Assembly: GCF_003611275.1 (NCBI RefSeq)
Contig: NZ_CP020694.1
Coordinates: 2,666,001 to 2,730,000 of the forward strand
From: Sulfitobacter sp. D7
GTDB taxonomy: Bacteria > Pseudomonadota > Alphaproteobacteria > Rhodobacterales > Rhodobacteraceae
Direction of reading: 5' to 3'
DNA length: 64,000 nt
Below the pieces are notes generated by a model, which was given only the letters and a program-made list of their open reading frames with translations, made no database searches and was not told the DNA's origin. Shown piece by piece: positions 15,437 to 50,399 of the stretch; position 1 is the first letter of the stretch, and every line of letters begins with the position of its first letter. The position numbers were made by a program, and so were the translations under genes.

Positions 15437-15457
15437 GGTATTTAAGAAAGGATGAAG
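15437..15457 (+). repeat. dispersed 21-bp AT-rich motif, copy 1
   Basis: GGTATTTAAGAAAGGATGAA plus G, in the mtnP-apt gap. Its first 20 bases recur exactly, inverted, at 49210-49229, and a near-copy lies at 49058-49078. It stands out as AT-rich in a GC-rich background. Confidence 0.7.
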
Positions 15458-46569: not shown

Positions 46570-49023
46570 ATGCGCGCCCTACCCCCCAAATTCGCCGATT
46601 GGTTCGCCCAGAACGGCTGGTCCCTGCACCCGCACCAGCAGGAAATGCTGGACCGTGCCGCGGCCCCCGCCCTGCTGCTCATCGCCCCCACAGGCGGCGG
46701 TAAAACGCTGGCCGGTTTTCTGCCCACCCTCGTTGATCTGGCCGAGCAAGAGCACGAGGGGATGCACACGCTCTACATCTCCCCCCTCAAAGCGCTGGCT
46801 GCGGATATCAAACGCAACCTGACCCGCCCGGTGGACGAAATGCGCCTGCCCATCCGCATCGAGGATCGCACCGGCGACACCCCGCAATCGCGCCGCCGCC
46901 GCCAGCGCGCCGACCCGCCGCATATCCTGCTGACCACGCCGGAAAGCCTCGCTCTGCTGACCTCCTACGAGGACGCCGCCCGCACCTTTCGCGGTCTCAA
47001 ACGCGTGGTGATCGATGAAATCCACGCCCTCGCCGAAAGCAAACGCGGCGACCAGTTGATGCTGGCACTGACCCGTCTTCAAGCCCTCTGCCCCGGCCTC
47101 AAACGGGTGGGCCTCTCGGCCACGGTCGAAGACCCTTCGGCCATCGCCCATCTCATGGCCCGCCACCCGGACCCTTGCGAAGTGCTGCTGGCCGATCCGG
47201 GCCCCGCCCCCGACATCCAGATGCTACACACCGAGGAAGCCCCGCCTTGGGCCGGGGGCGGTGCTGCCTATTCAATTCCAGCGGTGCTTGAGCAAGTGCG
47301 CCAACACAAGACCACGCTGATCTTCCACAACACCCGCGCGCAGGCCGAGATTTTCTTTCACAAACTCTGGCTCGCCAATGAAGACGCCCTGCCGATCGCG
47401 ATCCACCACGGGAGCTTGGATCGCGCCCAACGCGAAAAGGTCGAAGCCGCCATGGTGCGCGGCGATCTGCGCGCCATCGTCTGCACCGGCACGCTTGATC
47501 TTGGCATCGACTGGGGCGACGTCGACCTCATCATCCAGATCGGCGCCCCCAAAAACGTAAAGCGGCTGGTCCAACGCATCGGCCGCGCCAACCACCGCTA
47601 CAACGCGCCCTCCAAGGCACTTTTGGTGCCTGCCAACCGCTTTGAAGTGGTCGAATGCGTGGCCGCGCTAGAGGCTGTCCTCGAAGGCGCGCTCGACGGC
47701 GACCCGCGCGGCCCCGGCCCGCGCGATGTGCTGTGCCAACATATCCTCATCGCCGCCTGCGCAGGTCCCTTTGACGCTGACGACCTCTTCGCGCAGGTCC
47801 GTTCCGCCGGGGCCTACGCCGCACTGTCCCGCGCCGACTTCGACGCCTGCCTCGATTTCTGTGCCACCGGCGGCTATGCCCTGCGCGCCTACGACCGCTG
47901 GCAACGCCTGCTGCAACGCTCCGATGGCCAGTGGCAACTGCGTGACCCGCGCGCCGCCCAACGCATCCGCATGAACATCGGCACAATCCAAGATACCGAT
48001 AAGCTGAAGGTCCGCATGAAACGCAACCGCGGCGGCAAACCGCTGGGCGAGATCGAAGAAGGCTTTGCCGCAACGCTCACCAAAGGCGACACCTTTCTGA
48101 TCGGCGGCCAAATCGTACGCTACGAAGGCCTGCGCGAAACCGTTGTCGAAGTCAGCCGCAACGCCGCAAAAAAGCCCAAGGTGGCCACCTTCGGCGGCAC
48201 GAAATTCGCCACCTCCACCCAGCTTTCGGCCCGCGTGCAACAGATGTTCACGCAAGACAGTTGGCCCGAATTGCCGCGCCACACCGCCGAATGGCTGACC
48301 TTGCAACGTGAGGTCAGCCAATTACCACAACCCGGCACGCTGCTGGTCGAAAGCTTCCCCCATGACTTTGCCGAACAAACGGTCTTCTACGGTTTTGCCG
48401 GCCGCAACGGTCAGCAAACGCTAGGCCTCCTGCTGACCAAACGCATGGAAGACCTTGGCCTGCGCCCCTTGGGCTTCGTAGCAACAGACTATGCCACGCT
48501 CATCTGGGGCCTCTCCCCCGTCGACGACCCCGCGCCGCTGCTCGACCCCAGCGTGCTGCACGAGGGTCTCGACAGTTGGCTTGCGGGCAATGCCGTGATG
48601 AAACGTACCTTCCGGGCCGCGGCGACCATCGCCGGGCTGATCGAACGCAACAGCCCCAAAGCACGCAAATCCGGGCGACAGACGACCTTCTCCAGCGACA
48701 TCCTCTACGACACATTACAACGCTATGAACCGGACCATCTGATGCTCGACATCACCCGTGAGGAAGCCTTGAGCGGTCTGGTGGATTTTGGCAGGATCGA
48801 AGAGATGCTGGGCCGCATCGCCGGGCGCATCACCCACCGCAAACTGACCCGCGTAAGCCCGCTCGCCGCACCGCTGTTTCTGGAAATGGGCCGTGTGCCT
48901 GTCGAAGGCGCCGGACAGGAACGCATGCTGGCGGAAGAGGCCGAAAGACTGATGGAAGCCTCCGGCCTCGCGCAGCTCACTCCGCCGCCCTCGGATCAGC
49001 CGCCTTGGCGAGATGGGCGTTGA
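46570..49023 (+). CDS. ligase-associated DNA damage response DEXH-box helicase (Lhr-like)
   Basis: An 817-residue superfamily 2 helicase. Motifs are the Q-type HPHQQEML, Walker A APTGGGKT, DEIH in VVIDEIHALAESKRGDQ, SAT in GLSATVEDP, and the second RecA domain with FHNTRAQAEIFFHKLW, CTGTLDLGIDWGDVD and QRIGRANHR. The remaining half matches the Lhr-type C-terminus of the ligase-associated class. In other bacteria it is found with an ATP-dependent ligase, an exonuclease and PdeM. Here only pdeM follows, after 285 bases. I start at the ATG at 46570; a TTG at 46561 is also in frame. Confidence 0.92.
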   Translation: MRALPPKFADWFAQNGWSLHPHQQEMLDRAAAPALLLIAPTGGGKTLAGFLPTLVDLAEQEHEGMHTLYISPLKALAADIKRNLTRPVDEMRLPIRIEDRTGDTPQSRRRRQRADPPHILLTTPESLALLTSYEDAARTFRGLKRVVIDEIHALAESKRGDQLMLALTRLQALCPGLKRVGLSATVEDPSAIAHLMARHPDPCEVLLADPGPAPDIQMLHTEEAPPWAGGGAAYSIPAVLEQVRQHKTTLIFHNTRAQAEIFFHKLWLANEDALPIAIHHGSLDRAQREKVEAAMVRGDLRAIVCTGTLDLGIDWGDVDLIIQIGAPKNVKRLVQRIGRANHRYNAPSKALLVPANRFEVVECVAALEAVLEGALDGDPRGPGPRDVLCQHILIAACAGPFDADDLFAQVRSAGAYAALSRADFDACLDFCATGGYALRAYDRWQRLLQRSDGQWQLRDPRAAQRIRMNIGTIQDTDKLKVRMKRNRGGKPLGEIEEGFAATLTKGDTFLIGGQIVRYEGLRETVVEVSRNAAKKPKVATFGGTKFATSTQLSARVQQMFTQDSWPELPRHTAEWLTLQREVSQLPQPGTLLVESFPHDFAEQTVFYGFAGRNGQQTLGLLLTKRMEDLGLRPLGFVATDYATLIWGLSPVDDPAPLLDPSVLHEGLDSWLAGNAVMKRTFRAAATIAGLIERNSPKARKSGRQTTFSSDILYDTLQRYEPDHLMLDITREEALSGLVDFGRIEEMLGRIAGRITHRKLTRVSPLAAPLFLEMGRVPVEGAGQERMLAEEAERLMEASGLAQLTPPPSDQPPWRDGR

Positions 49024-49057
49024 ACACCGAGGTGCCGCAGGCGGAAAGGTTCTGCAA

Positions 49058-49078
49058 GGTATTTGAAAAAGGATGAAG
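49058..49078 (+). repeat. dispersed AT-rich motif, copy 2
   Basis: GGTATTTGAAAAAGGATGAA plus G, 35 bases past the helicase stop. It differs from copy 1 at two positions. With copy 3 it forms an inverted pair spanning 172 bases. Confidence 0.65.
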
Positions 49079-49081
49079 ATA

Positions 49082-49097
49082 TTAAGAGTTCTTTAAC
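49082..49097. promoter_or_regulatory. perfect CtrA-type binding site ahead of pdeM
   Basis: TTAA-GAGTTCT-TTAAC fits the full consensus TTAA-N7-TTAAC. It lies about 210 bases upstream of pdeM and four bases after motif copy 2. Confidence 0.5.
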
Positions 49098-49207
49098 CCA
49101 CGCGGCGCATCTTGATCCCGCGGTACAGGCTGCGGAGCCGATGACCGCAAAGGATGAAGGCGCGTCTCCGGTCAGGTTAACGCCCGGCTGCGGGGCGCGT
49201 TTTCTAC

Positions 49208-49229
49208 CTTTCATCCTTTCTTAAATACC
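49208..49229 (-). repeat. dispersed AT-rich motif, copy 3 (inverted)
   Basis: On the minus strand this reads GGTATTTAAGAAAGGATGAA followed by AG. The first 20 bases are identical to copy 1, 34 kb away. Confidence 0.7.
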
Positions 49230-49273
49230 GCTGCGCTGCCGTTTCCGGTCTTCTGACAATCGCGTTTATCCCC

Positions 49274-49302
49274 TTGCCAAATCGGCGGCGATCTCAGATG
49301 AA
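49274..49302 (+). promoter_or_regulatory. possible pdeM promoter
   Basis: TTGCCA (49274-49279; 5 of 6), 17 bases, GATGAA (49297-49302; 3 of 6). Initiation would fall at or near the A of the pdeM ATG (49309), giving a leaderless message. The -10 overlaps the LexA-type box. Confidence 0.4.
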
Positions 49303-49314
49303 CAAAGGATGAAC
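49300..49314. promoter_or_regulatory. LexA (SOS) box, alphaproteobacterial type, over the pdeM start
   Basis: GAAC (49300-49303), seven bases, GAAC (49311-49314) is the reverse complement of the direct repeat GTTC-N7-GTTC recognised by alphaproteobacterial LexA. It covers the pdeM ATG at 49309 and the end of the predicted -10 box, a position where LexA would block transcription. Confidence 0.65.
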
Positions 49315-49980
49315 AGCCTTAATTTTTCATTCGCCGGCGCGGCGCTTACCGCGCTTGGCTCTGGCGCGCTTTTGTGGCGCGACCGGGATTTGCTATGCGT
49401 AAGCGACCTGCATCTGGGCAAGTCTGAGCGGATCGCGCGGCGCGGCGGGTCGGCACTGCCGCCTTATGAGACCCGCGATACGTTGAACCGTCTGGCAGCG
49501 GATCTGTCCTTTACGCAGGCGCGACATGTGATCTGCCTTGGCGATAGTTTCGACGACCTTGGCGCGGCGCGAGCGCTGCCAGAGGAAGAGCGGTTGTGGA
49601 TACTGGGCCTGCAAGCCGGACGGCGGTGGGATTGGATTGAGGGCAATCATGATCCCGGCCCCGTAGGCTTGGGCGGCACGCATTTGGGAGAGATAGCGCT
49701 CGGCCCGCTGACCTTTCGGCATATCGCCGCGAGCGAGGGCCGGGGCGAGGTGTCGGGGCATTATCATCCTAAGGCATCGATCCGTGCGCGGGGCCGCAGC
49801 ATCTCGCGTCCGGCCTTTCTGTTTGACAGCAAGCGGCTGATCCTGCCTGCATATGGCACCTATACCGGCGGGCTGCGCAGCCAGTCGCGGGTGCTTTGTG
49901 ATTTGATGGGGCCGGAAGCCTGCGCGGTGCTGACAGGCGCGCAACCAGTGGCGATCCCCATGCCCGGAAAGGCGAGATGA
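49309..49980 (+). CDS. pdeM: ligase-associated DNA damage response endonuclease PdeM
   Basis: A 223-residue metallophosphoesterase-fold nuclease. All metal motifs are present: SDLHLG (Asp33, His35), GDSFDD (Asp79), GNHD (Asn113, His114) and SGHYHP (His151, His153). It is the usual partner of the Lhr-like helicase upstream. There is no well-placed Shine-Dalgarno site (AAAGG abuts the ATG), which fits a leaderless transcript from the promoter described here. A LexA-type box overlaps the start. Its last bases overlap the thioesterase gene (ATGATGG). Confidence 0.93.
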   Translation: MNSLNFSFAGAALTALGSGALLWRDRDLLCVSDLHLGKSERIARRGGSALPPYETRDTLNRLAADLSFTQARHVICLGDSFDDLGAARALPEEERLWILGLQAGRRWDWIEGNHDPGPVGLGGTHLGEIALGPLTFRHIAASEGRGEVSGHYHPKASIRARGRSISRPAFLFDSKRLILPAYGTYTGGLRSQSRVLCDLMGPEACAVLTGAQPVAIPMPGKAR

Positions 49981-50399
49981 TGGACCAGATTGAACACCGG
50001 GTGCGGGAGAGCTTTGGCAAACAGACCATGATGCAAACCTTGGGGGCGGAGATCATCGACGTGCAGCCCGGTTTGGTCCGGGTCACGGCACCGGTCCTGC
50101 CCGGCGCGATGCAGCAGCAGGGTTTTGGCCATGCGGGGCTGACATTTTCCATCGGCGATTCCGCGGCTGGTTATGCAGCGTTGAGCATGCTGCCGCCGGA
50201 GGTTGATGTTGTCACGTCTGAGATCAAGATCAACCTGCTGGCCCCCGCCCGTGGGGACCGGCTGATTGCCACGGGCCGGGTGGTAAAACCGGGCCGGCGG
50301 CTTTGTGTCGTAACCGCAGAGGTGCATGCGGAGACGGATGGCGCGGCCAAGCTCATCGCCATCCTGCAGGGCACCATCGTGCCTGTGTCTGCCTCTTAG
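49977..50399 (+). CDS. PaaI family thioesterase (hotdog fold)
   Basis: A 140-residue hotdog-fold thioesterase of the PaaI/YiiD type, which would hydrolyse an acyl-CoA. The hotdog helix region shows [24 protein letters not shown] and the strand after it [21 protein letters not shown]. Its start overlaps the pdeM stop by four bases, so it is translated with pdeM and would share its damage-linked control, an odd pairing for a metabolic enzyme. Its stop overlaps that of the convergent folD. Confidence 0.87.

Follow-up and report, generated by a model that had tools for sequence, protein, structure and literature searches.

The operator of alphaproteobacterial LexA is GTTC-N7-GTTC, and its standard targets comprise lexA, recA, uvrA, uvrD/pcrA and mmcB, the last of which (PF06319) is a DNA-repair gene under SOS control in Caulobacter. 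The second system of interest here, the Lhr-Core/MPE repair set, is known from biochemical work, and its cellular use is obscure. LexA sites in Dinoroseobacter fall into GTTC and GAAC consensus groups, with lexA and recA among the predicted targets, and the main text of that report (PMC6473078) mentions neither a metallophosphoesterase nor a helicase. Expression of recA and lexA rises in a Sulfitobacter during phage superinfection (PMC7305329), and an SOS response therefore exists in this genus. Both lhr (CC2040) and lexA of Caulobacter are listed in PMC1839093, the word phosphoesterase being absent from the part of that paper that was covered, and, according to PMC8301817, 276 of 319 genomes have an MPE gene in the vicinity of a bacterial lhr. 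In the open literature searched, no report of pdeM, or MPE, as a LexA target came up. Reasoning from sequence, we predict that pdeM is a new member of the known LexA regulon.

The gene in question lies in a stretch of 64,000 nucleotides (the window) from the 3.96-Mb genome of Sulfitobacter sp. D7, and its protein is closest to those of other Sulfitobacter (a Sulfitobacter sp. MAG at 97% and S. dubius at 95%). It encodes a ligase-associated DNA damage response endonuclease of 223 aa (pdeM, 49309..49980, + strand), assigned as PdeM on a TIGR04123 score of 200.2 bits, above the cut-off of 150, and on the gene for a TIGR04121 helicase upstream. This ligase-associated DEXH-box helicase (lhr, 46570..49023, + strand, 1025 bits) lacks a canonical LexA box where the gene begins. 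As in the Lhr-Core/MPE/Exo/Lig cluster of Pseudomonas putida, lhr and pdeM are neighbours, and exo (TIGR04122) and lig (TIGR04120) are also in the genome; unlike in that cluster, exo and lig stand together elsewhere, 1.37 Mb from lhr-pdeM, with no canonical box nearer than ~13 kb to them in this genome. Among the four genes, only pdeM has a box at its start. This predicted LexA-type operator, GAACAAAGGATGAAC (49300..49314, + strand), matches GAAC-N7-GAAC without a mismatch (GAAC-AAAGGAT-GAAC, which reads GTTC-N7-GTTC on the other strand), with half-sites at 49300-49303 and 49311-49314. The perfect box and its placement over the pdeM start codon, both noticed in a preliminary description of this DNA, are thus present: the match begins 9 bases 5′ of the A of the ATG (49309-49311), encloses this codon and ends on the sixth base of the gene, so that its second half-site combines the G of the start codon with the Asn codon.

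As a pattern match in a single sequence, the box is no better than chance. GTTC-N7-GTTC occurs once in the window, at pdeM, where shuffles lead one to expect 1.85 matches, and at least one match is seen in 87 of 100 shuffles of the window. Genome-wide there are 91 matches, against 178 for the pattern read backwards, and 57 of the 90 sites inspected (all but C6:75463) are intragenic by a home-made coding score. Since the pattern alone is not significant in one sequence, its significance has to be judged by conservation, and here the picture is very different. Among 81 orthologues (the best 80 named loci of 450 confirmed as relatives, plus the window), GAAC-N7-GAAC is found at exactly −9 from the start codon in 56, while all other offsets between −1000 and +700 yield in total four GAAC-oriented and three GTTC-oriented boxes. 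The 5-base spacer ahead of the ATG takes 25 different forms in these 56 genes, the AAAGG of the window being present in ten. Ruegeria pomeroyi (L072) is among the species with a box. The box is absent at −9 in the other 25, of which three (L035, L036 and L090) appear by eye to be one base off; these counts place the starts of L057 and L077 15 nt upstream, at an ATG outside the match, and treat as box-less L061, whose start is ambiguous and whose upstream in-frame ATG is also without box.

A wider sample of the order, which partly overlaps the first in species, gives much the same result. From 149 Rhodobacterales genomes drawn, 133 had a pdeM over the cut-off, and 90 of these loci were examined (the top 30, the 40 that follow them and 20 chosen from the lower end, the genome of the window being among the 43 left out), 88 of which were parsed (all but L311 and L315). 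With preference given to the start that puts a box at −9 where several starts are possible, the box stands at −9 in 58 of 88, elsewhere near the start in four and nowhere nearby in 26. The four off-position boxes are reversed in L245 (at −29) and L293 (at −27), and just inside the gene in L259 and L284. Three members of the genus Sulfitobacter without a −9 box (L047, L245 and L293) carry a reversed one at −27/−29, between −35 and −10. The position and conservation of the box are far beyond chance. Its absence from orthologous promoters had been named in the preliminary description as an argument against LexA, and what is seen is a box kept at the same position in most genes of both samples. 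Since most of the relatives checked share this placement, DNA damage very probably turns pdeM on, and LexA control of this gene across Rhodobacterales is very likely.

That control would not be indispensable. On a tree of the 81 PdeM proteins, the presence of the box requires at least 15 changes, eight of them forced by well-supported branches, compared with a mean of 21.6 when labels are shuffled; the box is scattered across the tree, with repeated losses or gains. Together with the box-less orthologues (25/81 and 26/88), this means that LexA control can be dispensed with. Outside the order, in a class-wide sample, a box at the gene start was found in one of the best 30 of 97 genomes over the cut-off, which makes the control of pdeM look mainly like a Rhodobacterales trait. 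In this one locus, L216 (genome G236), from another alphaproteobacterial family, two GAAC-N7-GAAC boxes overlap, and the second stands at −9 relative to a GTG start codon, possibly an independent gain; its genus-mate L217 has no box near the pdeM start.

The preliminary description had also suggested that the helicase upstream is not under the same box, which is what we find. With lhr starts extrapolated from tblastn, no box is near the lhr start in the window, nor in 74 of the 75 loci tested (window included, six loci left out); the one exception, L065, is among five loci in which lhr and pdeM overlap by 4 nt, all of them without a −9 box, an arrangement met in none of the 56 box-bearing loci. 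With a box in 1/75, it is pdeM, rather than lhr, that looks like the SOS target. The distance between the two genes in the box-bearing loci is 31-47 nt in 33, 17 nt in two, 52-112 nt in 11 and 263-384 nt in nine, and in L045, in which lhr was not found upstream within the locus examined, the box and the CTTG element described below are still present. In the window and in L031-L034 the gap is 285-287 nt, with additional sequence separating lhr from the pdeM promoter (49024..49272, + strand) that contains an inverted pair of a dispersed repeat. Downstream, a gene for a hotdog-fold thioesterase (49977..50399, + strand; TIGR00369 at 62.4 bits, PF03061) overlaps the end of pdeM, with which it would be co-transcribed in this genome. 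The coupling of the two genes proposed earlier is not general: the thioesterase start lies at most 760 nt from that of pdeM in only 30 of 81 loci and is more distant in 18, and in the remaining 33 the gene was not found within the stretch examined (three of these stretches being short). Co-induction of the thioesterase would therefore be a by-product in part of the clade.

How could an operator be held at one exact distance from a start codon? A plausible answer comes from the sequence around it. A predicted −35 element, CTTGCC (49273..49278, + strand), places its CTTG 36 bases before the pdeM start codon, and CTTG is found within −38..−35 in 54 of the 56 box-bearing genes and in 17 of the 25 box-less ones, against a background of 95 in 4860 four-position windows. 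Since it is also present in box-less genes, this element argues for a promoter and not for LexA. A predicted −10 region, GATGAA (49297..49302, + strand), follows TTGCCA after 17 nt and overlaps the first half-site; it is otherwise a poor match to TATAAT, and a strict sigma-70 scan gave no promoter over threshold in the region of the pdeM start. Across the 48 non-redundant box-bearing orthologues, 46 have A at −11 and 39 have C at −1 (the window has G at −1, not the commonest C). This layout – TTGCNN at −35..−30, 17 nt, a hexamer at −12..−7 with A second and C|A at the start codon – would fit a housekeeping promoter starting at the A of the ATG, and CTTG with its 17-nt spacing leads us to predict a leaderless transcript from ~49309, the ATG itself; the lack of enrichment in Shine-Dalgarno-like 4-mers (see below) points to the same prediction. 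Such transcripts are known in the class, with 171 leaderless mRNAs in Sinorhizobium (PMC3616915) and 375 in Caulobacter (PMC4117421). A match to RF03141 (S4-Flavobacteria leader) at 49297-49332 scored 33.3 bits, below the gathering score of 35.2, and was taken as chance because L031-L034, which have the identical 15-mer, give no match.

We therefore propose, with high confidence, that this 15-base site is a true operator of LexA, by which a pdeM-specific leaderless promoter would be repressed and, after damage, induced separately from lhr. In undamaged cells, a LexA dimer on GAAC-N7-GAAC would sit across the −10 region and the transcription start, keeping the pdeM promoter off; upon DNA damage, RecA-stimulated self-cleavage of LexA would release this promoter, which would use the CTTGC −35 element at −36 and start at or beside the A of the ATG, giving a leaderless mRNA. 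Expression of pdeM, and here of the overlapping thioesterase gene, would thus rise independently of the upstream helicase. Some transcription may also reach pdeM by read-through from lhr. LexA binding, repression, the leaderless start and damage induction are what we infer for pdeM from these signals. The exact and fixed place of the box would be explained by LexA lying over the start point together with the latter half of the −10 region. The earlier reading is supported and extended: its statement that the box lies where a repressor would block initiation is correct as to the start being covered, and has to be amended as to the step, which is probably transcription and not the covering of a ribosome site. 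There is about an even chance that this amounts to a distinct Rhodobacterales leaderless SOS promoter, in which the −10 region, start point, start codon and operator are fused into one 15-base element, half of it coding for residue 2, and from which the nuclease is induced alone while the helicase remains independent.

Of the alternatives, the one that survives best would have pdeM transcribed from the lhr promoter only, with bound LexA acting as a road-block that halts read-through. The two genes are indeed close and in line (31-47 nt apart in those 33 of 56 box-bearing loci), but the fixed-distance CTTG at −38..−35 in 54 of 56 points to a separate pdeM promoter, and this element is kept both in L045, where no lhr was found, and in the nine loci with gaps of 263-384 nt, all of which makes a road-block unlikely. 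A second alternative leaves the preferred operator aside and sees the GAAC at −9 and the ATGAAC as serving translation, or a Met-Asn N-terminus, and not a DNA-binding protein. It draws on the make-up of the second half-site, in which the G of the start codon is followed by the Asn codon. However, codon 2 is AAC in all 56 box-bearing genes, while the 25 box-less genes have AAC in 12, the synonymous AAT in four and another codon in nine; the GAAC at −9 does not resemble a Shine-Dalgarno sequence, 4-mers of that type being found in 6/81 orthologues compared with 8/81 in reversed sequence; and the boxes of L047, L245 and L293 stand outside the start codon altogether. We regard this reading as very improbable.

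The third alternative comes from an aspect of the sequence that went unmentioned in the first reading. The 10-base core of the box, AAAGGATGAA, occurs four times in 49068-49313 (at 49068, 49149, 49210 on the minus strand, and in the box), which leaves three further copies in the 250 bases upstream of the box. It belongs to a dispersed genomic repeat, GTATTTNNNAAAGGATGAA, a form derived from the window's own copies (GTATTTNNNNNAAAGATGAA, a guessed form of the repeat, has no match in the window), which is present in 28 exact copies and four one-mismatch copies with AAAGAATGAA. The reversed control gives 0 and 1 matches on the two strands with up to two mismatches. The copies of the repeat in the window are the inverted pair at 49058-49077 and 49210-49229 and one at 15438-15456. 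Between lhr and the pdeM start, GTATTTNNNAAAGGATGAA is thus seen twice in full and its core twice bare, and the box could be a chance match inside such a copy. This was rejected because orthologues have same-place boxes with unrelated spacers (25 in 56), and because five Sulfitobacter loci (L037, L038, L050, L051 and L080) have the identical 15-mer with no other AARGATGAA up to 330 nt upstream. The repeat could then account only for the resemblance of the core, not for the box, and this reading has hardly any chance; the resemblance of a true operator to the AAAGGATGAA repeat is probably a coincidence. As for the repeat itself, another tight inverted pair is found at C1:1252882/1252924, and G-rich sequence appears, by eye, to follow many of the copies. 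In the extra lhr-pdeM sequence of the S. dubius clade, 49040-49240 folds through the inverted pair at −84.7 kcal/mol (z −4.1 versus shuffled), and a small RNA, a terminator or a mobile-element remnant are all possible.

The case for LexA as the protein reading the pdeM operator comes from the other boxes of this genome. There is one LexA gene (C1:1700834-1701523, minus strand), the box of which (C1:1701554-1701568) ends 30 nt before its ATG, and the same box precedes recA (C1:1986157-1986171), uvrA, uvrD/pcrA and a radical SAM repair gene (TIGR03916); further copies lie at the mmcB start and between an unnamed gene and an SRAP gene. Most of these assignments come from proteins truncated where a 1-kb stretch ended, with NCBIfam scores accordingly below the full-length cut-offs and E-values <1e-48. 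The pdeM site thus has the operator pattern of the alphaproteobacterial SOS regulon, is free of mismatches, lies near a gene start, is conserved at orthologues and is shared with lexA and recA. That some other repressor of the same specificity uses it is scarcely credible: although the genome has 91 matches to the pattern alone, lexA, recA, uvrA and uvrD/pcrA are all preceded by this box, which is also present at mmcB. What differs is placement: the boxes of lexA, recA, uvrA and uvrD/pcrA begin (far edge of the box) 45-104 nt before gene starts set by the home-made score, whereas that of pdeM straddles its start codon at a fixed position.

A positive control is mmcB, for which the top 30 loci from 61 Rhodobacterales genomes (L334-L363) were examined in addition to the genome's own copy (L146). 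A GTTC box is found just ahead of the gene in 27 of the 30, and the remaining three each differ, by eye, at a single base of one half-site. In ten of the 27 boxed loci, an in-frame start codon is preceded by CTTG at a distance of exactly 36 nt, which suggests a leaderless SOS transcript here too. The mmcB box begins 26-27 nt before this CTTG-spaced start, in the orientation opposite to that of the pdeM box over the start codon, and the reversed boxes of the pdeM genes in L047, L245 and L293 lie about where the mmcB box lies. In the genome of the window, the true mmcB start may be an ATG 18 nt past the ATG inside the box.

Should the LexA reading of pdeM hold, it would have functional implications for the Lhr-Core/MPE set: (i) a conserved SOS operator confined to its gene would mean that the nuclease is needed after RecA-activating damage, and (ii) helicase and nuclease need not be co-produced. 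The pdeM box would also be an example of an operator whose position is pinned by a start codon, a placement worth attention.

Two other boxes of this genome can be mentioned. One (L017, G000:C1:560743-560757) begins 85 nt before a gene for an MT-A70 methyltransferase (PF05063), a candidate SOS-controlled modification gene. The other, a GAAC-N7-GAAC on another contig (L192, G000:C3:30789-30803), is placed by the home-made coding score inside the end of an upstream ORF and begins 84 nt before a gene for a DarG-type antitoxin (NF048014), raising a possible link between the SOS response and a DNA-ADP-ribosylation toxin-antitoxin pair.
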